Virus record (IMG/VR): IMGVR_UViG_3300043470_000483
Span: 1-22,379 of that record
Length of the DNA: 22,379 nucleotides
From: a virus
Strand: one strand, 5' to 3'
Made by a program: the position numbers and the translations under genes. Below the pieces are notes generated by a model that was not told the DNA's origin, ran no database searches, and worked only from the letters and a program-made list of their open reading frames with translations. Shown piece by piece: positions 1 to 18,392 of the stretch (the stretch's first letter is position 1; each line of letters begins with the position of its first letter).

Positions 1-3000
1 GTTACAATTGTAGCCGTATTTTGTACAAGAACTGCACCTGGATTACCGTTATCTGCTGTCTCGGAAATAGTAAATCCGGTATCTTCTAATACACTGGTAG
101 TAGAATTTGGTAATTGTATCAATGATCTAACATAGTAAGTTACACCATTTGTTAATGTAGTTCCAATTGTTGATCCAACAAACTTGATAGGCATACCAAT
201 GTAGAAACCAATTGTAGAACCAATTTCGCCAGCAACATCGGCGCCGCCTGTACTTGGATTAATACGAATAGCATTTGGATAAGAGGTTGATGGTCCATAA
301 GTTTGAACAGTGTCTCTTGTTCTTGAAGACCAAGTCAATGTTTGTTGATTCGTTGTATTCAACACCTCAAAACTTACGCCATGGGAACTAGCTAGAATCT
401 GACTTATCGGTGGTATTGTACTTTCCAATGTAATTGATGAAGATGAAACTTGTGCGCTATTATCAATTGTTCCAGCATAAAATGAACCATAGAACCCTGA
501 AGGTACCCAGTCTATTACTTGAGAAGTATAGCTTGTTCTATCAAACCGCAATGCAATATTATTTTCTCTTGTTGGAGTTGAACTAGTCACACAACTTGCA
601 AATGCACTTACACTAAACTGCTGTGATCCGGTACCCTGTGATGATAAAATAATGCGGTCATGATTGTTTATTGCGGCAAAGTATGATGCATAAAGTGCAA
701 ACACGGGAGATGGGGTAATCTCTAGTAGATTTACATAATAGTGTTGACCCGGAATTAACCCCAAGATTGGTGTACCATTTGTTGCTACTGTATAAATTAC
801 TAAATCACCTGTTTGTAATGTGGGTTCAGTTATACCAATCGTATTTGTTACAGTATTTACCTGTGTGCTATCTACTGACACAGTGAATGCAGGATCAATA
901 ATAATCTTAGGCAAAACAGCATAGCCTTCGCCTGGATTAATTACATTTACTCCAATTAAAATTCCCAAACTCATTACTGGTTCAAATTGTGCAATAACTC
1001 TTGGTGCAGGATATATAGAAGTATCAATATATGCAGTAACTCTAGGAGGGTTTACATATCCTCTGCCTTCATCAAGTACTATCACAGCAGGTAAATTTAT
1101 AAAGATATCTTCACCGGGTATATGTACTGTTGGAGTAGTACCGTTTATACCGCGTGAAATTCCAGACAACTCACTAGTTGCTAGATTTTTACTAGCATAA
1201 CTCATAACTTCTTCGCCAAGAATTATGTTACCTGATACGGGGAAACCATTTACATTGTCAACATAACATGAAGTTGAATTCAATGACATATAAGATGCTA
1301 ACACAGATATTTGATATCCATCTTGACCAGATATACTTAAACCATAGTTACTAAACCATTGACTATACGGAGCAGTTTGCCATATTGGGTCTGACGGTAG
1401 ATATTGATTATCCCCGCTTGGATTAGCATACACTAATTCAGGAGTAACAAATTGTTCTATCGTTGAATTGTACTGAGCCGGCAAGTCAAAGTCGGTTATA
1501 TCTCCTTCAAATATGTCAGTGCGAGTATACCTAAAGATAAATTCTTTGATTACTACATGATATGGCTTGACTTCATTCAAGTATCCTTCTAAGAATAATT
1601 GATTATCAGAACGGAACACTTCTAAAGGAAGCAATTCACGAATAGTGTGAGATACATCTATGAATGATGTTTTGTTTAACCATGTTAGATAGTTTTGACT
1701 TTCAATAGTTTCACTTTGAATATATTCAAACAGTAATATCAAACTCTTGTTTCTAAAGACTAACAATTCGTTAGTGTAAATTTCTTCATTTAATGAACGG
1801 ATTATATAGCGTGTTTCTTCTGATGGATATTCATCATATGGGGTAGTATCAAAGAAGTTGTCCCCAAATCCCAACTGAGCTTCAGCATAGTCCCATAGTT
1901 TACTACTAAATTCAATAGTACCGTTAGCCAAACCAATTCTAGTCCATATACCGGCGCCAGAATAAATGTAAGTCTCTGCATTACCTGCACCATTTGATGC
2001 GACCGTTACAATAGTACCATTAGGCACATTTAGTGTAGATAAATCCGCATATACGGGAACTTGTATTGATGATTTAGTATTATCGTTATAACCAATTGAC
2101 CACCAATTGATATTATTCCAATAATCTCTAGTGTCAAAGAATTCACCTGTTCTATGTAAGAATCTAGGATTTCTTAACTCATTGATCGGGAACTGTGCCA
2201 ATACAGTATTAGCGTACTGTAAGTAATTTGCTAGGGCGCCAAATCTATTATAGAAGAAACCTTGTCTTGGTCTAGCTAATATACCGGTTTGTACCGCTTT
2301 TGGTAGTAATGGATCAGGCACAACTCCGCCGATGTTGTCAACACCGCACATACTGTCTAGCATTCTATTGTATAAACCAATGGGTTCTGTTATACCCACT
2401 GCTGCCCGATTTTGATATGCTGCACCTGAGCCAGGAATCCCACTTAAGAAATCGTCAGGATAACCATCACGAATCAAACTATATTGATTATGCGCCACAT
2501 CATCATTGGTGGTTTCTGAATAACCAATGTGCAATACCGTATCTTTTGCGTTAATATACTCAGCACAGTTATATAATCCAAATACACTAGGCAACAATGA
2601 GGTAAAGTAACTAATACCAGATTGCTGTGGTTGTGAAATATAAGATTCAAGTGTACTATCTGCTAAAGTTTTACCCGCTGAAGAAAATACAATATTTGTA
2701 TTTCTTACCCAGTAATAATAAATTGGTGTTATCAACCCTTCTGCATTAATTACTCCGCGAATAGAATAACTATTAACATCATATGGTGTACCAGTACCTG
2801 CATACTGTGAAGGTATTGATTGACTTGCGATCCAAGAATAAACGGTTACGTTACTTCCGGGAAATACTCTACCCCAATATTGGCTATTATATTCTACATC
2901 ATTTTGATGATAGTTTATAAAGCGAGTATTTGACGTATTAAACCAAAGACTACCTATTTTATCTGCTGCCCAAACTTTTCCACCTTGCGTAGACCCTGCT

Positions 3001-6000
3001 GAATTGTATGCGGCTGGGTCATTGTTTGACACCACATCAATATTTTCTGATACTGCTCCTAATAGTTTTCCCTGTAGAGGATCAATGTAATCTAAGTTTG
3101 CCAAGGTTTGATTAGTGGTTGCACTAAACAATTGAATATTGAATATTCCGTTAACATCAACAATTGGTGAAGAATTTCTATATACTGCCCAATCCGGAGT
3201 GCTTGCTGTACTTACATAAGTAACAATTTGACCAAAGACACCATTAGTATTTACAGTTGGAACAAAGTTTGGTGTACCAATAGTAACTCTACTGTTATTA
3301 AAATCTAGCGCAGAGCCATAATATGGTTGTGCGCCGTAATCCAAATCTTGAGCATTTGTGCTTTGAGCATATACAAATTGACCAGGATTATTTATATTTT
3401 CATTATACATTGCCAAATAGTCAAACATGTACACTGCACCTGCATTAGTGAAGGTGTCGACCCACTGAGTGGCGTTGTTATCAAATACAGTATCATTATC
3501 TATTTCATCGTCAAAGAAGTCAAAGGTTGTACTAGAATATCTGGTTCCAACTGGAGCACTTGCTATAAATGAACCTGAATTAGACTTATCAAACTTGACT
3601 ACTGTGCCAAACTGAGTACGGCCTTGTACATGCGGGCAATATACCTTTTGTGTTTGTTTGTACAATTCAACTCCCATTTCACTCAATGTAGCTGAATCTA
3701 ACACTGTTAATGTTAATTTATTGCCTGCAATACCCAAATCAACATTGATTAGTGATATTACTAAGTTACCGTTTACTGCACTTGCTTGAATGTTAGTAAG
3801 GCTTAACAAGTTAATACTTGTTGCTACCGTTGCCGCATTGCCAATTGGTAACACGACTTTGTACCCATTCAATAGAATAGTTCTAGGAGTAGTTATATTA
3901 CATGCGGTAGTGCCAATGATAGTACCATATCTTTCGCCACCATTGGTGTATCTATGAACAGCACCTTCGTAGTTCTCTGCACTTAATTCAAACGGAGCTC
4001 CAACTAATATTTCATTTGCAAATGTATTAGTATCAGTGCTTAAACCAAATTGTACGCCAACTCTTGGTGTTTCTTCATTAGTTAGTGTTTGTGCTAATGC
4101 AAAGTTAGAACCACTCACGTTTATTATGTCACCTGCATTTAATGTAGGCGTTGCTCCACTATAGATATTTAATATAGAACCAATCACAGCGTAATAGTTA
4201 TCTGCAAGTGAAGTTCCATTAACTTGAACAAACAAAGGTGTTGACTGAACTGTTACTGTCATAGTACCAGTATCATCAGATAATTGTATCACACTGCCAT
4301 TGCGAGTAGATGAGATAGTGAATGTAGTTGATGTTGGTTTAGCTAAAACATAATATACTGTATTCAGAGCAATTGCGCCAGCAGATATGATAGTGCCTGA
4401 AAATACTACAGGATCACCAACTGTAAATCCAGTACTATCACTAACAGTAATTCTATTATTAGATGCGGTTGTTGCGGTTGCGGTTTGTGTTACTGTAATT
4501 GGTGTCCAAGCTAATGACAATGTTATTGGAACATATGCTTGACTATTTGACTGTGATTCAAAATTCTGAACAGTTCTAGAGAACACATAAGTATATCCAT
4601 AATTCTGAGTGTCAACATCGTAATCTTGTTGAGGAGTACCAATAATCACAGTATCACCAAAGTAATCAGTTGATATACTGTAACCAAAATTGTCGCCTGC
4701 GCTTGTTAAACTCAATGCGTCACCGTCAATAACATGTGCAAATTCATAGGTAGAGTTTGTAGCAGTTCCCGTGCCAGTGCCGGCACCAGTTGCTAAGAAT
4801 ATTGTTCCTACAATATTACTAGATGAGCCAATTAATGTAAAATCAGTAGTACCTTCACTAGTAATAGTGTAGGTATTACCTGAAACAAAGTTACCACTAG
4901 TAACACTGTATGCTGCTCTACGATAAGCATAAACACTATTGTTATCAATGTCAGAAATATAAAGCCAGTTTTGATCACCTGATAATGCTGTTGAAGTTCC
5001 CCATGTTGTGACTCCACCGGGAGCTGCAATAGTTTGATATAATGATAAAGTGTTTAGTGCAATAGTATTAATATATTGATATACATATACTTTAGGTGTA
5101 CCTGTAGGTTGAGAAATAACAAACAAGTTATTAACATACGATATGTTTGCACCAAATGATGTAGTTTGTGTTATTGTTTGGAATGGTATGTAAGAATCGC
5201 TGATTGCGTCATATGTATAACGATATACTTCTCCAGTAACACTGTCACCGATTAGGTAACCAAAACTAGAAGTATACGCAACTGCGCTACCAAACGTTCC
5301 GCTTGCTGGATTTACAATTTCTTTATCGTATTGGTAATTTAAACTTTTGCGATATACAGCCCAGCTACCATCATTGTTGGTATCAACCCACACTTTTAAT
5401 TTATTAAACTCGTTGTCTAACAAAGGTAACGTACCTATTTCCGGTGCAGTTGCCACACGTTGACTTTGTAATCTAAAGCCAACACCCTGACCGTTAATAG
5501 TTTTTATTTGCGGATTCAATGAAAGATTTATAATGACATTGAACGGATCGACTACAGCAGCAACAATATAATAATTATCAATTGCCACATTAAAATTAAC
5601 GATTGCAAAAGATTCATATTTTGTCAAATTATGAGATTGGCTGAACGTTATAGTTACAGTATTGTTTAAATTGTTCTTAGCATTGATAACTGATCCCAAA
5701 CTAGCCGGAGTATAAACTTGCCATGTTGAAAGATAGTTTGCTAACCAAACATAATCACGCACATAGAATTGACTAATAGGAATTGTAGTTCCAGCAGCAT
5801 TTTGCGCTGTTGGTAGTCCAGAATAAAAATAACTAGCCATTTTAACATCATTTAAATTAACATACCCAGCAGTGGGATACAATGATGATGGTTGTAGGTT
5901 TGAAATAGTAGGTAATATATTAACAGTTGTTATCGGTCTTCCATAGTTAAACACACTGTATAGTGGTACTTCTTGTTGCACACCGTCGATAGATATCCCA

Positions 6001-9000
6001 GATGTTAATCCAACAATAGAAGGATTACCAACTAATTTTGGTTGATCAAGTCTAAACTCAATGAAGTTGTTATTGAGTATTCCGCCAAATTCACCTGACT
6101 TAATAGCCCAATTTTGATATATGGTATAATCAATACCACCTTGAGGTAAATTTGTACCTTTAAATGCGCTAGCTGCATTCAATGTACCTTTATTTTTAAT
6201 TAGGTTTTTGTAAACATTAACTTGAGTAACGTCAGTCAAATCAACTAATGCGAGATAATCTCTCGGACGATATCCAATTAAAGAGAATGATAATAAATCA
6301 GCATCATTTTCTAAATTAACTTTATCCACATCATAATACAATGTGCTTTCATATGAACGTGTTTGGCTATTTGGTAATAATCCCGTTTGAATTTGATCAT
6401 AAGATGTTTCTTTCCAATCAAGTTCCTTGAACAATATGCTTGGTTGTATTATTCTAAGAGCAGACCAATATTTATTTTTATATTGTACAATAGAACCGGC
6501 AGTATACTTAATAGTATTGTCCCACTCTTTTACATTATCTTGATTTAAAATAAATCCAGCAGCATCTATATTACCAGTCCAATCAGCAGTTAATGATCCA
6601 TTAACAGATATACGATATTGTCTTAGCCCCGTAACCAAGTTATAAATTATATCATTAAACAATGTAACATTGTCAAAAACTATGCCATTTTCAATGTTAC
6701 TGATATTAAATTGACCATAGCTAATAGCATCACCCACGTTTAATGTTTTGGCTGCGAATGCAGTACCGTCACGGGTAATATTTAAATTACTTGTTGAGAT
6801 TGGATATAATTCTTGATTCAACAAAAAGTTTTTTTGACTTAATGTTAATGGCTGAACAATTCTGCTTTCTTTGTTAATAGTTATTAAGTTAGCTGATGGA
6901 TTGATAGTTGTAATAGAACCAAGGTCCCATCCAGTTTGTGCCCAATACAAAAATTCAGAAATCATTTGTTGCCATTGAATTGGAATACCATTTTCAATTT
7001 CGTCGTATACTACACCTTGACTTATTAGATATTCACCATAGTTAATTAAAAACTGTGCTACTTGTTGTGTATTGTAAAATTCAGTTCCATATGGAATTAC
7101 TTGTGTCTCACTAGTAAAACTATCAGTAACTTTTACTGTTAAGTTTTCAACCGTAATTGTTTGGATATTTCCGCCAAATTTTGGAGTAAGTGTTTTGAAA
7201 TATGCATTGGTTTGTGAGTTACCAAAAACTTTATAACCATTTTCAGTTATTTGTATTACGACACCACTATAGATGATTCTATCAAATGGTTGATTTTCGT
7301 ACAATAATAAGCCATAGCTTTCGTCAGGTATTAATAATGAACTATTATTACTATTTGCTGAACTCTTTTCAACGTAGAATTTCAACAGATTTTTGTCGCT
7401 AAAGCCTGCTGCACGATATACTAACCGAACATCTAAGTTATCCAACAATGTAGTTATGTTAGTTGTTGCATCTATTCCAACTTGTTTTTCATAGTCAACT
7501 ATCCAGTTGATATAGCTAGTCGCAGGCGTTCCTGCCCCATATATTGGAACATCACTTATTACTAAATGACTTCTATCATTGACTAGATATTGATTAAATT
7601 CTACATTGTATTTGTAATTGTCAACATCAACACCCAAATTAAAGAAATCAGCTGGTTTAGTTAATGCAAGAATGTGCATCAAGTCAAAGGGCCAAGTGCT
7701 GCTTCTACGATAGCTAAACTCTGCAGGACCAACATCGCCTACTATCCAATCACGCTGGAATAGATATTGATCGTAATTACCAACCAGTGAATCAAACGGT
7801 GATAATAAATCACCATTACTATCTACTGGTATTATTTTTGATAAACCAGGGCGAGCATAGCTAGGTTTAATAAACGGGGTGCCGTCATTCCAAACGGTAC
7901 CAGTTTCTAAGTCTCCCCACAACACCAAATTGTCACTTGTATATGGTGCAGGACCATACCGACTAGTCCACCAAGTAGGTTGATTTGCTAAACCTAACAT
8001 CTGCCAAGGAGTTTCGTTTGGTGTACTTGTATCATAAAAGAACAAATAAGCACCCCTGAAATATCCCTGTTCAATTGGTTGATTGTTTATTTGGTTGCCG
8101 CTGTCTCTATAGTTGTAAGTAAACTTATTATTCGTATTATAGAATTGTGTTTTATAATTAATTCTGTTTTGACCAACCCAATTTAAAAACAACTCACTGT
8201 AAATTTGTAAAAATTCATCAGTTGAATAATCAGTGGTTCTAAAGAAGCCAGGGATAATTACACCTTGATATGAACCTGCAGGAACCGTTTCACTTAGTTT
8301 TAAATTGTTGTATACACGAGTTTCATATTCAAGTAATACTTGATCTCTGAAATCAACTAATGTATCTGTGGTTGGATCATAGCTACCATACAGCTTATTA
8401 AATGACCCATCATGTCCCACTATGAAATATGTTGCAGGACTATAAGCTGTATCTAGTGTTACACTAGGAATAGTTGCAGGATATAATCCTAATTTAGTAG
8501 GTGTATTTGGAACATAACTTCCATATGTTTGATTGTATTCTTTAACAGTAATTTGATCATTTGCTTCTAATGCTTGTATAACTGTTAATGACGGACTATC
8601 AATACTAACTGTATAGTCAATACCCTTAATTAATTGTGTTTGCACATTATTGCGAGTCAAATATACTAATATACCATCATAATTCGCAGTAGCAAAAGTA
8701 TAGATATGACTTAATGGATAAACACTTATATCTAACGAATTTGCAAAACTATATGTGTTTGAGATGTACGGAGCCTTAGAAGGCAACATATCACTCCAGA
8801 AAAACGATTGAGATTCCACATTTGCTGCATTAATCTGATCTAATGCAGCATCTAACATTTGCGATGGGGTCAGTATTCTAGAATAATCTGAATTATTAAC
8901 TGTATCCACCAATAATGTCTTAAAGGTAATATATTGTCTGCTATTATACAACAATGAGTTGAATAAATTATGATCTTGGTTTCTTAAGAAAGTGCCAGGC

Positions 9001-12000
9001 AATACTAGTGAGGCACTATTCTGTATGATTCTATTACCCCATGGAACCAAGTTACCTAAATCACGATAGTTGTTTGAGCCAAAAACAATACCTGTTGTAT
9101 TAGGATTGTTAAAGAAAATACTTTGATACTGTCCACGAATGTCCCCTATGTTTGCAGTCGTAATAGGTGCATTTAATGGATTGTTATTTAAATTAATAGG
9201 TGTTTGAAAGTATGCAGTTTTGCTTACTTGGTCACTTAAAATCAAAATTTGTACTACTGTATTTGTCGTAGGAATTACTGGAATAGTAATAGTCGTTGAG
9301 ATGGTAGACAAAGGATCAAGAATCTGCCAGTCGGTGTCTGGTACATAGATATTGTTAATATAAACTTGAATTAGTGGCCACAATGTGGGTGTAGTAACAA
9401 TAGGTGCTATATCACAAGTGAAAGTGTTGGTTGTATTTGTTACTGCATCATAATCAAATTCAAAAATTTGATATTGCACACTAGGTGATACCGCAGTTTG
9501 CCATCCTAACTGTCTAACAATTATTGGATCATTATCGGATGTTATTGCGTAGTTATAAACGTACCCTGTGTTTACGTTCTCTGTTATTGCATTTAATCCT
9601 CGAACATATGTGAAGGTATCAGAATTCAATGTAACATCAAAACTTATATCACCCACATTACTAACAGAACTATATCTTAACGGGAAACCTAGTACTGCAT
9701 CATTTGATCCTGATCCAATTCCATATGAAAACAATGTACAACCAGAAAATGATGTACCTACATAAATCTCAGGGTCTCCTAAACTTATATCGTTGCTATC
9801 ATAGATATCAAATTTAGGCGGTTGATTTATTTGAGTTTTTTGTTGACCGTTAATCCAATCAACACCGTCAAAGAAAAAATCTTTACCCTGATAATTATAT
9901 CCTCGGTAAACTGCTGTTTGCTCGTTTGGTAAAACCAACCCATCACTAGCTTCAGTAAGTGTAATTACTGGAATACTACCCGGCTGTATTGTAGAAAACC
10001 GTGAAATGTATATTTTATTTCTAACGTTATCGTCAGTGTCGGCTGCAAATACTACTCTTGAGCCGTCAAATAATGAATAGTTATCTAATGGGGTATCAGC
10101 AGTTACTACTGATGCAATTGAGGTACCAGCAATAATTGATTGGTTATACCAAGATACAGTAATAACAGTGTTGGAACCCACTGTACTAACATTATTTATA
10201 AAAGTAATTGACGGTAATAAACCAGTAGAATCAGTTATATACTGTCCTATAGTAAACAACCCAAATACATCAGTGCTTGGTGCTGTAACAGTAGTGCTAT
10301 ATGGGTAAACTGATGCTGACATTGAGCCTGAGCTAGAAGTTACTGTTACTGGAGTTCCTTGATTAGTAGCTGATATTATAATGTTAGTAGAATTTACGAT
10401 TTCAAGCACATAGTATAAGTTAGAATTATTTGTGGGACTTGTGCTGATTCCACCAAACGCAGTGCCGGTGAAAGTTATTGTGTCATTGACATGCAATCCA
10501 GTTGTGTTATCTAATACTACTTGATTTATTAATGAGATAGTTGCAGTTGCAGTCTTTATTATTGCGCCGGTTACCGGCGCAATAGTTGCGCTAGCAGTTG
10601 TATAACCAGCTGTATCTGGGTAATAATTAGGTTGACCAGCCACATAAGTAAATGCATCGGTTGTTTTAGTATCAATGAAGTCAATAGGGTTTTTACCCAC
10701 AGCACCACTATTGAACAATTTAAGATTAGGATAGAATTCAATAATAGGTCTTTTTGCTTTATTACCCAATTGAGTATATTCAGTAACTAACTCGGGAGCA
10801 TTGTTATATGTTGCTGTGGCATTAATAACATCAATATGAAACCAACGATTGCTTCTTGACCATGCATTTCTATTAATAGAATTTCTAGCAATAGTTATAT
10901 AATCAGGATTGATTGGAATGTACAAATTTGAATCATAGTTACTCATATCGTACGGTGTAGTATCGTACGGAATATATGAACCCGCAGCGAATAAACCAGG
11001 GGAAACAAGTGTAGTTACAGGTATCAATTCAATTGCGGTCCCTACACCTTCAACATAGAATTCTACGTTATTGAAACTTTCAGGATATATATCACCTTGA
11101 AAAATAACTTTTAATCCATTAGTAAAAACAACACCGTTCTTTGCAGTATAGGTGGTCTGACCCAAAATGTCAGTTTCTACATTAATTTGATTTGTAATAT
11201 TGTTCTCAATCAAATTGATAACACCAACCCGACCGGGAATAGTACCATCTTGATAATACAATTTATCTAGTATAGCACTGTTGTATGGCTGCAATGTTAT
11301 TACACCAATTGAACTTCTATAAAAATTTCTGTTTGCCCACTCTAAACCATATGTTGCAGTTATTTTTTCATTAGTGGGGATTGCTGCGGTAGCAGTCAAT
11401 TGAATCTGAGGATTATCAATATCTCCTAACAAACTAATGGTGTAGAAAGTTGCAGATACATCAGTATAGTATCCGCCTTCATAATTATTGTTGAATATTG
11501 ATGATCCGGGATAATCTATACTTTCATTGTAGTTTACTCCGCCATTTTCATCATATAATGTTTGGTCAAAGAATTTATCAACATAGCCACTTTCATTTGG
11601 TACGCCGGTGTTGTAAAACATTACAGTTAATCCGGCTAATGCGGTTACTCCGTCAATACCTCCTATATCATTTACTAATGCTCCGTTTACTTGATCAAAT
11701 GGTAATGTTGAAACAACACCCACTGTATTATCGCCTGGGAAAATAAAATCATCTAATGCATTTTTCTGAGGGACAGAAAAGGTAACAACTCCATTGGTTG
11801 CCCCGTTGTTAATAACCCCATATACATCACGAGTTTGTACATTGCGTTCGGTTGGGCTTAATCCAGTAACACCGGGTACTCCTTGAATCCAAAACTCAGT
11901 AAGTTGATTCACTGTAAAGGTATACTGTCCACCTCTCAATAAAGTTAATGTTGGGTTAGCACTAGGGGTCGCAAGAGATTCTGAAGAAATTAAATAGTAG

Positions 12001-12491
12001 TTTGCTTCGGGTTGAACAATAAAGTTTTCTGCATTGTATACTATATTAGAAGCAACTACTACACGCTCGGGTCCTTCCGGTAACCAATAGTATTGGTTAA
12101 AGTTAATGATTGTATCTAAATTAGTAAATGAATCCCATGAATAAAACTGACTATTGAATAGTCTATTGTTATCCGCAGTTAATCCACCTTCTAAACTCAA
12201 TGCATCTATAATTCCAGGATAACTAATGAAATCTTTTGCAGTGGAATTGTTTTCTTTTAAGAAAATAACACCTGGATCCAATTGATAATCAGTTCTTGTT
12301 TTAGTGGGTTCGGTTACATACCGATCGGTAGCATTAACACCATATCCAAATTTGCTACCAATATACCCTTGAATCCTTTTAATATTGGGTTGTGCTACCA
12401 ATTGATCTAGCGTTGCTGCTAAAAATTGTGCGTTGGTCTTGGTTTTAAATATTTCTGGAAGAAAATCTAATGTTCTAATTCTTGATGCCAT
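1..12491 (-). CDS. Giant multidomain baseplate/tail protein in the gp7 position (at least 4163 aa, C-terminus beyond window)
   Basis: The frame opens at ATG 12491, 23 nt after the gp6 stop, with AGAGA at 12505-12501 lying 9 nt upstream. It runs without a stop through base 1: 4163 full codons plus two bases. I checked the phase at the start, in the middle (around 9003 and 3003) and at the left edge, and it is the same throughout. Order of parts: N-terminal segment with LDFLPEIFKTKTNAQFLAAT (8-27); a beta-rich region with GGQYTFTV and FWIQGVPG (about 185-205); a repeated YYV module (about 648-728); a conserved-looking core with QRDWIVGDVGPAEFSYRRSS (near 1575); a CBM-like patch (about 1985-2030); an FG-GAP-like propeller region (about 2390-3115); NEVKPYHVVIKEFIF (about 3637-3651); GxGY repeats (about 3815-3865). 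Gene order 25-6-X matches T4 gp7 (1032 aa), suggesting a wedge protein fused to fibre-like modules. The role is inference; the coding call is firm. Confidence 0.93.
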   Translation of the reverse strand, partial: MASRIRTLDFLPEIFKTKTNAQFLAATLDQLVAQPNIKRIQGYIGSKFGYGVNATDRYVTEPTKTRTDYQLDPGVIFLKENNSTAKDFISYPGIIDALSLEGGLTADNNRLFNSQFYSWDSFTNLDTIINFNQYYWLPEGPERVVVASNIVYNAENFIVQPEANYYLISSESLATPSANPTLTLLRGGQYTFTVNQLTEFWIQGVPGVTGLSPTERNVQTRDVYGVINNGATNGVVTFSVPQKNALDDFIFPGDNTVGVVSTLPFDQVNGALVNDIGGIDGVTALAGLTVMFYNTGVPNESGYVDKFFDQTLYDENGGVNYNESIDYPGSSIFNNNYEGGYYTDVSATFYTISLLGDIDNPQIQLTATAAIPTNEKITATYGLEWANRNFYRSSIGVITLQPYNSAILDKLYYQDGTIPGRVGVINLIENNITNQINVETDILGQTTYTAKNGVVFTNGLKVIFQGDIYPESFNNVEFYVEGVGTAIELIPVTTLVSPGLFAAGSYIPYDTTPYDMSNYDSNLYIPINPDYITIARNSINRNAWSRSNRWFHIDVINATATYNNAPELVTEYTQLGNKAKRPIIEFYPNLKLFNSGAVGKNPIDFIDTKTTDAFTYVAGQPNYYPDTAGYTTASATIAPVTGAIIKTATATISLINQVVLDNTTGLHVNDTITFTGTAFGGISTSPTNNSNLYYVLEIVNSTNIIISATNQGTPVTVTSSSGSMSASVYPYSTTVTAPSTDVFGLFTIGQYITDSTGLLPSITFINNVSTVGSNTVITVSWYNQSIIAGTSIASVVTADTPLDNYSLFDGSRVVFAADTDDNVRNKIYISRFSTIQPGSIPVITLTEASDGLVLPNEQTAVYRGYNYQGKDFFFDGVDWINGQQKTQINQPPKFDIYDSNDISLGDPEIYVGTSFSGCTLFSYGIGSGSNDAVLGFPLRYSSVSNVGDISFDVTLNSDTFTYVRGLNAITENVNTGYVYNYAITSDNDPIIVRQLGWQTAVSPSVQYQIFEFDYDAVTNTTNTFTCDIAPIVTTPTLWPLIQVYINNIYVPDTDWQILDPLSTISTTITIPVIPTTNTVVQILILSDQVSKTAYFQTPINLNNNPLNAPITTANIGDIRGQYQSIFFNNPNTTGIVFGSNNYRDLGNLVPWGNRIIQNSASLVLPGTFLRNQDHNLFNSLLYNSRQYITFKTLLVDTVNNSDYSRILTPSQMLDAALDQINAANVESQSFFWSDMLPSKAPYISNTYSFANSLDISVYPLSHIYTFATANYDGILVYLTRNNVQTQLIKGIDYTVSIDSPSLTVIQALEANDQITVKEYNQTYGSYVPNTPTKLGLYPATIPSVTLDTAYSPATYFIVGHDGSFNKLYGSYDPTTDTLVDFRDQVLLEYETRVYNNLKLSETVPAGSYQGVIIPGFFRTTDYSTDEFLQIYSELFLNWVGQNRINYKTQFYNTNNKFTYNYRDSGNQINNQPIEQGYFRGAYLFFYDTSTPNETPWQMLGLANQPTWWTSRYGPAPYTSDNLVLWGDLETGTVWNDGTPFIKPSYARPGLSKIIPVDSNGDLLSPFDSLVGNYDQYLFQRDWIVGDVGPAEFSYRRSSTWPFDLMHILALTKPADFFNLGVDVDNYKYNVEFNQYLVNDRSHLVISDVPIYGAGTPATSYINWIVDYEKQVGIDATTNITTLLDNLDVRLVYRAAGFSDKNLLKFYVEKSSANSNNSSLLIPDESYGLLLYENQPFDRIIYSGVVIQITENGYKVFGNSQTNAYFKTLTPKFGGNIQTITVENLTVKVTDSFTSETQVIPYGTEFYNTQQVAQFLINYGEYLISQGVVYDEIENGIPIQWQQMISEFLYWAQTGWDLGSITTINPSANLITINKESRIVQPLTLSQKNFLLNQELYPISTSNLNITRDGTAFAAKTLNVGDAISYGQFNISNIENGIVFDNVTLFNDIIYNLVTGLRQYRISVNGSLTADWTGNIDAAGFILNQDNVKEWDNTIKYTAGSIVQYKNKYWSALRIIQPSILFKELDWKETSYDQIQTGLLPNSQTRSYESTLYYDVDKVNLENDADLLSFSLIGYRPRDYLALVDLTDVTQVNVYKNLIKNKGTLNAASAFKGTNLPQGGIDYTIYQNWAIKSGEFGGILNNNFIEFRLDQPKLVGNPSIVGLTSGISIDGVQQEVPLYSVFNYGRPITTVNILPTISNLQPSSLYPTAGYVNLNDVKMASYFYSGLPTAQNAAGTTIPISQFYVRDYVWLANYLSTWQVYTPASLGSVINAKNNLNNTVTITFSQSHNLTKYESFAIVNFNVAIDNYYIVAAVVDPFNVIINLSLNPQIKTINGQGVGFRLQSQRVATAPEIGTLPLLDNEFNKLKVWVDTNNDGSWAVYRKSLNYQYDKEIVNPASGTFGSAVAYTSSFGYLIGDSVTGEVYRYTYDAISDSYIPFQTITQTTSFGANISYVNNLFVISQPTGTPKVYVYQYINTIALNTLSLYQTIAAPGGVTTWGTSTALSGDQNWLYISDIDNNSVYAYRRAAYSVTSGNFVSGNTYTITSEGTTDFTLIGSSSNIVGTIFLATGAGTGTGTATNSTYEFAHVIDGDALSLTSAGDNFGYSISTDYFGDTVIIGTPQQDYDVDTQNYGYTYVFSRTVQNFESQSNSQAYVPITLSLAWTPITVTQTATATTASNNRITVSDSTGFTVGDPVVFSGTIISAGAIALNTVYYVLAKPTSTTFTISSTRNGSVIQLSDDTGTMTVTVQSTPLFVQVNGTSLADNYYAVIGSILNIYSGATPTLNAGDIINVSGSNFALAQTLTNEETPRVGVQFGLSTDTNTFANEILVGAPFELSAENYEGAVHRYTNGGERYGTIIGTTACNITTPRTILLNGYKVVLPIGNAATVATSINLLSLTNIQASAVNGNLVISLINVDLGIAGNKLTLTVLDSATLSEMGVELYKQTQKVYCPHVQGRTQFGTVVKFDKSNSGSFIASAPVGTRYSSTTFDFFDDEIDNDTVFDNNATQWVDTFTNAGAVYMFDYLAMYNENINNPGQFVYAQSTNAQDLDYGAQPYYGSALDFNNSRVTIGTPNFVPTVNTNGVFGQIVTYVSTASTPDWAVYRNSSPIVDVNGIFNIQLFSATTNQTLANLDYIDPLQGKLLGAVSENIDVVSNNDPAAYNSAGSTQGGKVWAADKIGSLWFNTSNTRFINYHQNDVEYNSQYWGRVFPGSNVTVYSWIASQSIPSQYAGTGTPYDVNSYSIRGVINAEGLITPIYYYWVRNTNIVFSSAGKTLADSTLESYISQPQQSGISYFTSLLPSVFGLYNCAEYINAKDTVLHIGYSETTNDDVAHNQYSLIRDGYPDDFLSGIPGSGAAYQNRAAVGITEPIGLYNRMLDSMCGVDNIGGVVPDPLLPKAVQTGILARPRQGFFYNRFGALANYLQYANTVLAQFPINELRNPRFLHRTGEFFDTRDYWNNINWWSIGYNDNTKSSIQVPVYADLSTLNVPNGTIVTVASNGAGNAETYIYSGAGIWTRIGLANGTIEFSSKLWDYAEAQLGFGDNFFDTTPYDEYPSEETRYIIRSLNEEIYTNELLVFRNKSLILLFEYIQSETIESQNYLTWLNKTSFIDVSHTIRELLPLEVFRSDNQLFLEGYLNEVKPYHVVIKEFIFRYTRTDIFEGDITDFDLPAQYNSTIEQFVTPELVYANPSGDNQYLPSDPIWQTAPYSQWFSNYGLSISGQDGYQISVLASYMSLNSTSCYVDNVNGFPVSGNIILGEEVMSYASKNLATSELSGISRGINGTTPTVHIPGEDIFINLPAVIVLDEGRGYVNPPRVTAYIDTSIYPAPRVIAQFEPVMSLGILIGVNVINPGEGYAVLPKIIIDPAFTVSVDSTQVNTVTNTIGITEPTLQTGDLVIYTVATNGTPILGLIPGQHYYVNLLEITPSPVFALYASYFAAINNHDRIILSSQGTGSQQFSVSAFASCVTSSTPTRENNIALRFDRTSYTSQVIDWVPSGFYGSFYAGTIDNSAQVSSSSITLESTIPPISQILASSHGVSFEVLNTTNQQTLTWSSRTRDTVQTYGPSTSYPNAIRINPSTGGADVAGEIGSTIGFYIGMPIKFVGSTIGTTLTNGVTYYVRSLIQLPNSTTSVLEDTGFTISETADNGNPGAVLVQNTATIV
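45..275 (-). repeat. Beta-rich YYV module, copy 4
   Basis: Residues about 4073-4149, the last part visible in the window, read STIGFYIGMPIKFVGSTIGT, a short loop, VTYYVRSLIQ, then GFTISETADNG. The layout matches the copies at 10310-10560 and 4230-4503. More copies may follow beyond the left edge. Confidence 0.45.
600..1285 (-). repeat. Gly-rich RG/GxGY repeats followed by YYV module copy 3
   Basis: Residues about 3736-3870 include NGFPVSGNIILGEEVMSYAS, ISRGINGT, then two matching units: DEGRGYVNPPRVTAYID and NPGEGYAVLPKIIIDP. The GxGY...P...I/V repeat is common in large phage appendage proteins. It is followed at about 3868-3964 by a more divergent copy of the YYV module (LQTGDLVIYTV, then HYYVNLLE). 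Confidence 0.45.
1490..1690 (-). other. EVKPYH segment of the giant protein
   Basis: Residues about 3600-3668 contain WLNKTSFIDVSHTIRELLPL then FLEGYLNEVKPYHVVIKEFI. This mostly helical, charged stretch contrasts with the surrounding Ser/Thr/Asn-rich beta sequence and looks conserved. Phrases of the form EVKPYHxxIxEF occur in other large phage tail proteins in my recollection. It may mark the end of the ancestral wedge part before the fibre-like C-terminal modules. Confidence 0.4.
4230..4503 (-). repeat. Beta-rich YYV module, copy 2
   Basis: Residues about 2663-2755 follow the same plan as the copy at 10310-10560: ITVSDSTGFTVGDPVVFSGT, a loop, VYYVLAKPTSTTFTIS, then IQLSDDTGTMTVTV. This is the most complete copy. 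It lies between two propeller blades, so it is an insertion in that region. Confidence 0.5.
4740..4905 (-). repeat. GTTDFT/GAGTGTGT module inserted in the propeller
   Basis: Residues about 2530-2585 read VSGNTYTITSEGTTDFTLIG then SSSNIVGTIFLATGAG and TGTGTA. This compact Gly/Thr-rich unit interrupts the spacing between propeller blades. I recall very similar phrases (YTIxxxGTTDFTxIGA...GTGTA) in many phage tail proteins, which would make it a mobile structural module; unverified here. The DNA for the Gly/Thr run includes a 10-nt palindrome at 4777-4786. Confidence 0.45.
6400..6532 (-). other. Carbohydrate-binding-like patch in the giant protein
   Basis: Residues about 1987-2030 read EWDNTIKYTAGSIVQYKNKY then WSALRIIQPS and LDWKET. 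The spacing W-x(5)-Y-x(2)-G-x(2)-V-x-Y-x(3)-Y-W-x-A...W resembles the short chitin-binding type CBM5/12 modules often carried by phage tail proteins. It is followed by a well-ordered segment with DVDKVNLENDADLLSFSLIG and YRPRDYLALVDL (about 2052-2085). A surface-glycan contact is possible but unproven. Confidence 0.4.
10310..10560 (-). repeat. Beta-rich YYV module, copy 1
   Basis: Residues about 648-728 of the giant protein show the pattern TGLHVNDTITFTGTAFGG, a short loop, LYYVLEIVNSTNIIIS, then a Thr/Ser/Gly-rich strand ending GSM. The same order of elements recurs at 4230-4503, 600-880 and 45-275. Copies are divergent at DNA level, so these are domain repeats and not recent duplications. 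Confidence 0.5.
10560..10584. repeat. 25-nt GC-rich perfect inverted repeat inside the giant gene
   Basis: The plus strand has tattgcgccggt, one central t, then accggcgcaata: two 12-nt arms that are exact reverse complements. It encodes part of TIAPVTGAII in the giant protein. It is clearly GC-richer than its surroundings. With only one central base it would form a hairpin only by opening several pairs, so a bound-protein site or chance are alternatives. Confidence 0.6.
12330..12470 (-). other. N-terminal conserved-looking segment of the giant protein
   Basis: Residues about 8-54 read LDFLPEIFKTKTNAQFLAAT, then LDQLVAQPNIKRIQGYIGSK and FGYG. The segment is helical, less repetitive and more information-rich than the rest, and is followed by RYVTEPTKTRTDYQLDPGV. 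In my recollection similar starts occur in very large structural proteins of environmental T4-like phages. It probably anchors the chain to the baseplate wedge; that part is inference. Confidence 0.45.
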
Positions 12492-16398: not shown

Positions 16399-17784
16399 TT
16401 ATGCTGACGTAATAGTTGAGCTTGACGGTAGTGGTTTACCGGTAGTTAGTGTATACTGCGTATTTTGTAATGCTATTACTTTTTTATCCAATTCGTCTAT
16501 GTTATTTTTAGCTGTTTCAACTGCTTGTTCTAACGCGGGTATAGAAGGATCACCTTGTGGTAAATCTTGTTTAGCTTTACTAAGGGTATATCTTGCATCT
16601 GCTTCGGCTTTAACTAAAGCAAAACGAGCATCGGACAATGTTTCAATTTCTTTTTTATTTACATCATATGCAGTAATTTCAGATTGTGATAAGTCTCGCA
16701 TCGTGGTCGCAGTCAGTCCCGAAAAGTCTGGTACAGGAACTTTCTTGTCACCCAACAAGTTACCGATCTGAGAAGATATTTCACTTCTATTAATTGTATT
16801 TTCAGCTACTGTTGGCATTTTTATAGGAAAGGGACTAGCAGTACTTAGTGAATTCATACTTGCTGTTAATGATGCTGCGGCTGCAGGAGATAGCCCAGTT
16901 GAAACCAACGATGATAATGGTTGTCTTCCAGATTGCAGTCCTTGAGTTAAATTACTAATTGAGGGTAACCCTGAAACAGCAGGTAATACAGAAATGTTAG
17001 GTATACTTCCAGTTACACCATTTGGTAAACTACTAGGATTACTTAATACTCCGCTCAGTGATGCGCCGGCCCCTATTAACGCATTGCCAGATAATAAATC
17101 TGACAGTGAGCTTGAACCGGACGTTGCAGTACTAATTTGATTTAGTGCTGCACTAGATGCATTTTTAGTTATTGAACCAAGACCACTTAATGTGTCAGAA
17201 ATTCCACTAGTAGTTAATGCACTGGGATTTACTATAGACGAAAGTGCCGATTGCCCACCTGGTAAGTTGCTTACCCCACTAGCAAGTGCAGATGGGCTAA
17301 CTATGCCTGACATGCCAGGCACATTACTCATTGCCCCCGATAATGCACTCAATCCTGCTTTTACTCCACCGGATGCAACTGCTGCGTCCACTGCAGGTAT
17401 TTTACCTGTTGCTACATCAACTCCTGCGCTATTTAATCCACTCGTAAATGAAGTTGTTAATGGAGTAGATGCAGCTTTGGTGTCTGTTGCCACCTGGTCT
17501 AATTTATTTTTTAAATTGATAATTGTTAAGTTTTGCGGAACTCCGGCTTGCAGTGGTTTAAATGAGGCTGATATTGCAGCAAATGCCGAACCTGATATTC
17601 TTTTTGTAGTATCTACTAATCCCGATAACCCAGTAATACCGGGTATACTTGGCATTGAAGCCGTCATGCCATTAAGAGAAGTAACAATAGAACTTGCGCC
17701 ACCGGTTGTGGTTGCTAGCGCAGATGAGAAATTACCTGAACTTATTGCACTTGCTACATTAGATATAGAAGGAAGTGTTGACAT
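16399..17784 (-). CDS. Unrecognised Ser/Ala/Gly-rich protein with C-terminal coiled coil (461 aa)
   Basis: Function is unknown. The ATG at 17784 overlaps the TAA of the 202-aa gene by 1 nt (TAATG), with GGTGA at 17798-17794 lying 9 nt upstream. Residues 1-340 are low-complexity, rich in Ser, Ala, Gly, Leu and Thr, with degenerate repeats such as IVSPSAL (161-167) and IVNPSAL (184-190), 23 residues apart, and recurrent LPSIS, GLSGL and LSSLV words. Residues 366-443 are charged and heptad-like (SDARFALVKAEADARYTLSK, then ALEQAVETAKNNIDELDKKV), predicting a coiled coil. The architecture suggests an elongated, possibly trimeric virion or chaperone-like protein, but this is inference. It ends 7 nt before the gp25 start. 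A 205-codon frame on the opposite strand is a by-product of its biased composition. Confidence 0.87.
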   Translation of the reverse strand: MSTLPSISNVASAISSGNFSSALATTTGGASSIVTSLNGMTASMPSIPGITGLSGLVDTTKRISGSAFAAISASFKPLQAGVPQNLTIINLKNKLDQVATDTKAASTPLTTSFTSGLNSAGVDVATGKIPAVDAAVASGGVKAGLSALSGAMSNVPGMSGIVSPSALASGVSNLPGGQSALSSIVNPSALTTSGISDTLSGLGSITKNASSAALNQISTATSGSSSLSDLLSGNALIGAGASLSGVLSNPSSLPNGVTGSIPNISVLPAVSGLPSISNLTQGLQSGRQPLSSLVSTGLSPAAAASLTASMNSLSTASPFPIKMPTVAENTINRSEISSQIGNLLGDKKVPVPDFSGLTATTMRDLSQSEITAYDVNKKEIETLSDARFALVKAEADARYTLSKAKQDLPQGDPSIPALEQAVETAKNNIDELDKKVIALQNTQYTLTTGKPLPSSSTITSA

Positions 17785-18392
17785 TATATTATATCACCAA
17801 TATTTGTAGAGTTTTGTAAGAATGCTACAGTGGATTTTACTCCAACATATGCAGCAGCATTTACTATCCCTGCTATAGCTCCCGGTGCTTCATCACCAAC
17901 TATAGCACCGGTCATCATCATTGCAGTTTGTGCCTGTTGAAAATTAATTATCTGTGCTGCTGCTTGTGCAGAAGTATTATTAATTAATGCTTGTAAATTT
18001 TCAGCTCCAGGAACACCAGTAAACAAATTATTTGTCATGGCAGATTCTACACTCATTCCCCTTTGAACCAAACCAGTAACCAATGAAGCTGATCCTGGTT
18101 TTAATATACCCGCTGCTTCAAGCTGTTGCGGTGTCTTTGCTAGTATACCTATCCCAGCATTAACATTTCCTGCAGCATCTACAATAATACCAGTCCCATT
18201 CGCTACCACCTCGGGATACGCAGCCGCTGCTTGTGCTGCTGTGCCGCCGATCATTGCGGCAGTTACACCAGCATTTAATGATTTACTAACTGTTCCAATA
18301 GCAGGAACCGTGGCAGAAGTTGCCGCCGTGACTGGATTGTTAGGCGGAAGTCTTGTTGAATTAGCATATGTTTGACTTTGATTATATTGCAT
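17784..18392 (-). CDS. Unrecognised Ala-rich protein between gp5 and gp25 (202 aa)
   Basis: Function is unknown. The start at 18392 overlaps the stop of the gp5-like gene as TAATG, and AGGG at 18403-18400 lies 7 nt before it, so translation is probably coupled. The sequence is rich in Ala, Gly, Thr and Asn. Residues 35-60 (SKSLNAGVTAAMIGGTAAQA) look helical. A more conserved-looking core at 83-127 includes TPQQLEAAGILKPGS and MTNNLFTG. Two further Ala-rich helices follow (residues 130-160 and 165-190). Similar LExAGxLKPG phrases seem familiar from tail proteins of environmental phages, but I cannot verify this. No signal peptide or clear membrane segment is present. Placement in the hub/baseplate operon suggests a minor virion or assembly protein of the tail tip. 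No T4 counterpart can be named. Confidence 0.85.
   Translation of the reverse strand: MQYNQSQTYANSTRLPPNNPVTAATSATVPAIGTVSKSLNAGVTAAMIGGTAAQAAAAYPEVVANGTGIIVDAAGNVNAGIGILAKTPQQLEAAGILKPGSASLVTGLVQRGMSVESAMTNNLFTGVPGAENLQALINNTSAQAAAQIINFQQAQTAMMMTGAIVGDEAPGAIAGIVNAAAYVGVKSTVAFLQNSTNIGDII

Follow-up and report, generated by a model that had tools for sequence, protein, structure and literature searches.

A giant minus-strand gene at the wedge position of a phage baseplate cluster is an extra-long member of the phrog_10938 family

In phage T4, the baseplate wedge gene gp6 is followed by the gene of gp7, a protein of 1,032 amino acids (aa; phrog_964, with the Pfam families PF21428, PF21427 and PF21456). 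Cyanophages are known to encode giant forms of gp7: gp083 of ACG-2014e (3,495 aa; phrog_4406, phrog_2885, phrog_701) directly follows gp6, and ORF122 of S-CREM2 (77594-83407), a “baseplate wedge protein, intermediate”, lies right after an inner wedge protein and is listed with 91 unique peptides in the accessible part of the report (PMC10665884). A further family of giant proteins, phrog_10938 (“virion structural protein”), is known from jumbo phages of the RaK2, PA5oct and Atu_ph07 types and is without explanation. Here we describe a giant open reading frame (ORF) on the minus strand of the IMG/VR virus record IMGVR_UViG_3300043470_000483, the entire 22,379 bases of which are referred to as the window. 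It occupies the same position after gp6 as T4 gp7, and its product resembles the giant gp7 of ACG-2014e in being a multi-domain protein with inserted modules.

The frame is free of stops from its ATG at position 12491 to the left edge, comprises at least 4,163 codons and is open at the contig end, as an earlier reading of the letters alone (the sequence-only reading) had described it. The deduced protein matches phrog_10938 with an E value of 5e-252 (five stretches, the best at residues 1089-1984), and we assign it to this family by sequence similarity. The window gene is an extra-long form of a known, unexplained family at the wedge position. Eight members stem from named phages, each as one annotated gene, i.e. 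RaK2 ORF070 (3,326 aa), PBECO4 gp538 (3,333 aa), CBB gp236 (3,340 aa), PA5oct gp355 (3,857 aa), Atu_ph07 gp180 (4,449 aa), Phosso 294 (4,555 aa), SCTP-2 gp140 (3,807 aa) and Vibrio phage 2.275.O NVP2275O_424 (3,771 aa). The proteins of PA5oct, Atu_ph07, SCTP-2, RaK2 and the Vibrio phage share BLAST segments of 23-45% identity with the window protein along the core, and proteins of the window's clade exceed the eight named members in length by a factor of about 1.3 to 2. With tblastn, the C-terminal part of the window protein retrieved 57 phage records and residues 1-1497 retrieved 42, all below 60% identity. The family is large: one scan of viral contigs with the giant protein yielded 415 stretches, 414 of them relatives, and a wider scan found at least 575 relatives among at least 599 stretches, from which 80 loci were kept. 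Six further loci (L359-L364) lie in contigs filed under metagenome-assembled genomes of Gammaproteobacteria (2), Neomarinimicrobiota (2), Endomicrobia and Puniceicoccaceae; they are probably phage contigs binned with bacteria.

The best 80 stretches of the first scan gave 78 loci. The frame is complete to a natural stop in 42 of them (4,110-6,794 aa, median 6,456.5; 36 distinct sequences), runs into the contig end in 36 and is broken in none. The closest complete relative, L025, encodes 6,548 aa (710.6 kDa, i.e. ~711 kDa) and is 91.9% identical to, and collinear throughout with, residues 1-4163 of the window protein. Because L025 continues to 6,548 aa, about 2,370 residues are probably missing from the window, which would hold roughly two thirds of the protein. 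The window spans the whole record, which gives no sequence further to the left. The sequence-only reading had contrasted the frame with the 1,032 residues of T4 gp7. The difference in size is real, but its oddity was overstated, because all but one of the 54 complete ORFs from 87 loci have at least 2,492 aa and the gp7 of ACG-2014e is itself a giant.

The giant frame is one real coding gene. No stop was observed where about 302 are expected from the base composition, and the other five frames across 3..12491 contain 244-499 stops each, their longest stretch without a stop being 92 codons. GC at the third codon position is low throughout the frame and varies little (0.19-0.25 in 500-codon blocks). 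The ratios of nonsynonymous to synonymous substitution rates (dN/dS) were calculated against five relatives (L011, L020, L025, L013 and L012) in segments of at most 500 codons, the last comprising 163 codons. The values are 0.05-0.18 in the 44 of 45 segments that were computable; those for L012, the most distant of the five with dS >1, are rough. The frame is therefore under protein-level purifying selection over its whole length. The substitutions are concentrated at the third codon position, e.g. 227, 133 and 807 at the three positions for L025. A chance frame was ruled out by the stop counts, the 42 intact frames in relatives and the dN/dS values, and so was an assembly join, which the sequence-only reading had named together with a hidden stop as what could overturn it.

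In the window, 23 nucleotides (nt) separate gp6 from the start codon of the giant gene. Sequence of at least 4.5 kb upstream is available for 134 of 164 loci, and gp6 is directly upstream on the same strand in all 134. The single giant chain in the wedge position after gp6, as read from the window, is supported. The median gap is 26 nt, as extrapolated from alignments; 133 gaps are shorter than 300 nt, and one has 1,133 nt. gp25 is found upstream in 133 of the 134 loci, counted on any strand. Among the named phages, gp6 is directly upstream in seven of eight, the exception being SCTP-2. The order gp25-gp6-X is also found in cyanophage ACG-2014e and in phage P2 (W-J-I).

The presence of the protein in virions has been reported by mass spectrometry for named relatives outside the window's clade, as far as the accessible parts of the sources go. 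CBB_236 is listed as a structural protein adjoining CBB_237, “baseplate wedge”; its table entries 21 and 7.72, in an excerpt lacking the column heads, are taken as peptides and % coverage (PMC5259590). The accessible part of the phAPEC6 report lists gp245 from virions with 381.88 kDa, 17 unique peptides and 7.6% coverage, beside gp244, “baseplate wedge” (PMC7247149). phAPEC6 gp245 is presumably a phrog_10938 member because of its size and place; the RaK2 protein computes to 382.2 kDa. The record of PA5oct gp355 carries the note “ESI-MS/MS”. In the accessible parts of the papers on Atu_ph07 (PMC6102473), RaK2 (PMC3622015) and Alcyoneusvirus adsorption (PMC10253068), the protein is not discussed as a wedge protein, and no passage naming phrog_10938 as a gp7 equivalent was found in the accessible literature.

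We think it probable that the giant protein is one peripheral baseplate protein of an uncultivated jumbo myophage, most likely doing the wedge job of gp7. The phage is called jumbo because relatives of the same clade sit on contigs of 231-333 kb, which suggests a genome of this class. The gp7-like role is proposed because the position fits and no recognisable gp7 was found elsewhere: the eight named jumbo genomes have no match at E 0.1 to the gp7 families phrog_17744 and phrog_964, nor have three contigs of 231-333 kb. As controls, T4 and Cr30 match both families, and ACG-2014e matches phrog_17744 only. During assembly, presumably six copies of the giant chain would be added to the gp6/gp25 wedge. 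The six-block core would build the outer wedge, and the modules inserted between blocks, together with the long C-terminal extension, would project outwards, probably touching fibres or the surface of the cell. Binding would then be passed to the wedge, and contraction of the sheath would be triggered.

The core is defined by block profiles (N, N2, M1, M2, M3 and C; Table 1) built from an alignment that includes the window and the eight named phages, so that the window passes by construction. The block order was tested on loci L278-L364: these 87 loci hold 54 complete ORFs, from which the re-found named phages L278, L279 and L315 and a few near-duplicates have to be subtracted. All six blocks are present in order in 53 of the 54; the exception, L336, is without N and N2. 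Overall, the constant order was found in 94 of 95 complete distinct proteins, some of which are near-duplicates of the same phage. The named phages have the same blocks in the same order and, except for SCTP-2, in the same place behind gp6. The complete members examined range from 2,242 to 6,794 codons, and all of the 54 except L336 reach at least 2,492 aa. The size differences arise in the gaps between blocks and in the part after block C. Overall, this last part spans 35-3,206 aa; the eight named phages have 525-1,295 aa there, against 2,168-3,206 aa in the window's clade. Sequence conservation is higher in the core than in what is appended to it.

In a tree calculated from blocks M2-M3 (90 rows, six near-duplicates having been removed; a quick method without bootstrap), the window groups with L025 and L013. 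The 34 long-tailed rows form one clade with a Shimodaira-Hasegawa-like approximate likelihood ratio (SH-aLRT) support of 99, and the short-tailed L073 stands beside them. L314, L334 and L342, all >6,000 aa (6,194-6,311 codons from stop to stop), are grouped apart, also with an SH-aLRT of 99. They are without the long C-terminal extension and have grown by about 820-930 extra residues from N2 to the end of M1 and by a longer gap before C. In the window's uncultivated branch, the protein was lengthened to ~6,500 aa via a long repeat-filled tail. The simplest reading of these sequences is that an extreme size of >6,000 residues arose at least twice in the family, at different sites.

The tail contains a module of ~74 aa, which was recovered by profile iteration started from window residue 648. 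Each of 40 long-tailed proteins of >5,800 aa carries 8-14 copies of it (median 12); 92 other family members have a median of 0 and a maximum of 3 copies, and the gp7-type proteins searched have none. A Pfam scan of six copies of this module gave no significant family. In L025, a match to E1_FCCH (E 3.5e-5, residues ~6053-6125) lies between two recognised copies and is not equated with the module. In a self-comparison with the composition step switched off, which may inflate the scores, L025 shows many weaker internal repeats throughout its C-terminal part. Several of these repeats also appear in a BLAST comparison that includes this step; one earlier self-comparison listed no repeats, probably due to the BLAST composition step. 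Between relatives, the extension shows insertions or deletions of about 60, 121 and 334 residues, and its identity is below that of the core. FG-GAP-like, CBM-like and E1-FCCH matches, all under the Pfam cut-offs in the window and in L025, suggest adhesin-like modules in the giant protein, and the FG-GAP-like repeats may form a beta-propeller.

The compact relative L295 (3,676 aa) was used for AlphaFold2 models. The model of residues 1-1195 has a predicted local distance difference test (pLDDT) value of 87.4 and a predicted template modelling (pTM) score of 0.84; that of residues 1322-2518 (1,197 residues, taking in M3) has values of 79.7 and 0.49, respectively. Residues 523-616, inside M1, resemble the N-terminal domain of T7 gp17 and other fibre-connector domains, CBA120 TSP4 among them (Z 8.3-8.8, 64-75 aligned residues), at scores little above the Z of 7-8 that is common according to the tool. 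A Foldseek search of the first model against the PDB had a best E value of 2.7e-3 and no match at 0.001. Residues 1752-1833 (431-512 of the model), between M3 and C, resemble an E1 FCCH domain (Z 10.8, 1.6 Å, 75 aligned residues) and, to a lesser degree, a domain of the phi92 endosialidase (Z 8.1). The gp7 core is absent among the PDB matches listed, which is uninformative, as all of those listed fell on one small domain per model. A search among viral models recovered family members and proteins that have modules in common with them. Compared with solved structures, the sequence profiles of two alignments gave only a match of E 0.086 to “Tail protein gp15”, so that the conserved core has no trustworthy sequence match among them.

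For similarity to gp7, 124 profile comparisons were made in all. The segments comprised 22 overlapping ones of L025 against T4 gp7, 18 of L025 against the gp7 of Cr30 and of the cyanophage, seven of RaK2 against Cr30, the cyanophage and T4, and ten from deeper, L295-led alignments against all three; 12 comparisons, followed by three with a deeper alignment, addressed a Lys-Gly-Thr region in M3. As positive controls, hhalign values of 97.9% (E 4e-13) were obtained for T4 gp7 and Cr30 gp248, and of 99.5% and 98.5% for Cr30 and the cyanophage giant. The direct comparison of T4 gp7 with the cyanophage giant reached 18.5% only. P2 gpI was also fetched for comparison and was left unused; its 80 loci are 99-100% identical to gpI.

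Several observations weigh against the proposed role. The profile comparison with T4 gp7 that the sequence-only reading had suggested gave no match: the tested parts of the giant protein have no profile similarity to it, the best hhalign value of the jumbo giants being 1.1%, and homology of the core to gp7 is not established. The gp7 of Cr30 reaches only 17-40%, over the short Lys-Gly-Thr helix, and 16.8% with the deeper alignment. The gp7 family search may miss a diverged gp7: phrog_964 misses ACG-2014e, which has one, and also matches one of 14 control genomes (Bacteroides ihuae), and the cyanophage gp7 families phrog_4406, phrog_2885 and phrog_701 were outside the search. Salicola phage SCTP-2 has gp6 ~90 kb away from the giant gene; its wedge cluster is rearranged. 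The PDB matches listed cover one small domain per model, and no structure places the giant protein in the baseplate. A peptide coverage of ~8% is no proof of one uncut chain.

The core could itself descend from gp7 and have kept a helical centre around the Lys-Gly-Thr of M3, which is compatible with the proposed wedge role and would add descent to it. The end of M3 aligned with the Cr30 gp7 core at 28-40% in four segment choices, with a best E value of 3e-4 for one comparison, which is weak given 124 comparisons, and the cyanophage gp7 core aligns in the same Lys-Gly-Thr register at 1.1-1.6% only. Of 219 aligned stretches, 59 are gapped at this place; among the other 160, the Lys is conserved in 157 and the Gly in all. 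The T4-like location immediately behind gp6 and the gene order shared with ACG-2014e and P2 also speak for such a descent. In contrast, the deeper alignment reduced the value as stated, T4 gp7 itself is unmatched, and the Pfam families listed for 28 members include neither gp7 nor tail protein I. The gp7 core of the cyanophage giant is recognisable via Cr30, whereas none is recognisable in the window's family. We therefore regard common descent as conceivable, with the balance somewhat against it.

Outside the core, just after block C, hhalign values of 61-89% and 53% to the cyanophage gp7 were obtained for two small modules, i.e. L025 residues 3735-3805 with 68-152 (89%) and 3815-3873 with 1605-1656 (53%). 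The second module reached 12% against Cr30, and the stretch between M3 and C reached 15%. These matches point to shared modules and not to a common core. The first module, at ~1100-1315 of the window's minus strand, is common to the giant at the gp7 position of the cyanophage, suggesting that inserted modules may have been exchanged between phage lineages.

The sequence-only reading had gone further and suggested that wedge protein and host-contact appendage are merged into one polypeptide. A single chain of ~0.7 MDa would then serve both as the wedge component, like gp7, and as an integral arm for host contact, in a family in which a size of >6,000 residues would have arisen at least twice; in the window's clade, the arm would be a long array of diverged small modules. 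If so, the outer baseplate with its sensors would consist of just six such chains (~4 MDa). The giant chain at the wedge position and the virion evidence in relatives agree with this idea, but identity with gp7 did not emerge from the comparisons. In eight relatives, the genes downstream of the giant were compared: the seven of the window's clade have one of 206 aa followed by a second of 408-417 aa, whose counterparts in L295 measure 200 and 560 aa. The 206-aa protein of L025 belongs to phrog_11259 (unknown). The next gene of L025 is separate and is taken as fibre-like because its product has a Peptidase_G2 domain (E 3.5e-6) and a match to a virion structural family. Adhesin-like modules are suggestive of a merger, but in L025 this separate fibre-like gene follows the giant; a merged host-contact arm is plausible and is kept as a tentative proposal with less than even odds.

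It is unlikely that the giant is not the gp7 equivalent at all and acts as a fibre, a whisker or an organiser of a fibre network, being encoded here as late tail genes cluster, with the real gp7 being a diverged small protein elsewhere. This would fit the lack of a convincing gp7 profile match, the fibre-connector-like fold in the core, the module-rich and variable C-terminus, the separation of the giant gene from gp6 in SCTP-2 and the whisker-like structures along the CBB tail that are described in the accessible part of the report (PMC5259590). In contrast, the adjacency to gp6 is tight in every testable locus, conservation is stronger in the core than in the added parts, unlike in a typical receptor-binding protein, and two gp7 families are unmatched in the 11 genomes or contigs that carry the giant, though a diverged gp7 could escape. 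Very improbable is an assembly join or a region made as several independent proteins, for which the giant size alone, an internal in-frame ATG (residue 1235) with GGAG upstream (Met in all 36 aligned environmental relatives) and two in-frame TTG codons (1236 and 2943) also preceded by GGAG could be cited, and against which stand the 42 uninterrupted frames among 78 loci, the purifying selection along the entire length, the single annotated genes of 3,326-4,555 aa in the named phages and the 381.88-kDa product listed from virions.

Table 1. Features of the giant gene and its neighbours in the window
Feature	Residues	Positions	Strand	Remark
Giant ORF, phrog_10938 virion structural protein		3..12491	minus	4,163 codons, ATG start, 3′ end cut by contig end
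Core block N	1-150	12042..12491	minus	block profile
Core block N2	530-640	10572..10904	minus	block profile
~74-aa module, copy 1	649-726	10314..10547	minus	iterated profile; between N2 and M1
Core block M1	800-1250	8742..10094	minus	block profile
Core block M2	1290-1760	7212..8624	minus	block profile
Core block M3	1760-2240	5772..7214	minus	block profile; helical stretch (L295 model), near-invariant Lys-Gly
CBM_5_12-like stretch	1989-2010	6462..6527	minus	below Pfam cut-off; weak match also in 12 of 28 relatives
Lys-Gly-Thr motif	K = 2101	6183..6191	minus	sole, weak contact point of core with gp7 cores
FG-GAP-like repeat 1	2582-2637	4581..4748	minus	Pfam E 2.6e-4, under cut-off
~74-aa module, copy 2	2672-2745	4257..4478	minus	iterated profile
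FG-GAP-like repeat 2	2797-2848	3948..4103	minus	profile iteration, no negative control
FG-GAP-like repeat 3	3039-3084	3240..3377	minus	profile iteration, no negative control
Core block C	3090-3700	1392..3224	minus	last block common to whole family
Clade-specific C-terminal extension, start		3..1391	minus	~2,370 residues more beyond contig end, per L025
~74-aa module, copy 3	4077-4158	18..263	minus	iterated profile
gp6 baseplate wedge subunit, 1,124 aa		12515..15889	minus	phrog_10646 E 3.9e-252, phrog_219 E 7.8e-18
gp25 baseplate wedge subunit, 149 aa		15942..16391	minus	PF04965 E 2.3e-8
gp5-like baseplate hub protein, 481 aa		18392..19837	minus	phrog_13211 E 2.3e-36, PF04717 E 4.9e-5
Virion structural protein, 820 aa		19856..22318	minus	phrog_11190 E 7.4e-15, residues 35-104 only

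Reading with the giant gene, the order in the window is the 820-aa virion protein, the gp5-like hub protein, proteins of 202 aa and 461 aa, gp25, gp6 and the giant. The 461-aa (16399-17784) and 202-aa (17784-18392) minus-strand proteins have no Pfam or PHROG match at E 0.001, and their frames, between the hub gene and gp25, share one base. A plus-strand frame of 205 codons (17192-17809) opposite the 461-aa gene is probably a shadow of the coding strand. In SCTP-2 (L004, 3366-12656), the giant is preceded by a second giant ORF, gp141, of 3,096 aa.

The window's clade represents the long extreme of the family, and the compact L295 offers a tractable core for structural work. If the giant replaces gp7, the wedge of these jumbo myophages would be built on a protein other than that of T4, with gp6 and gp25 kept.

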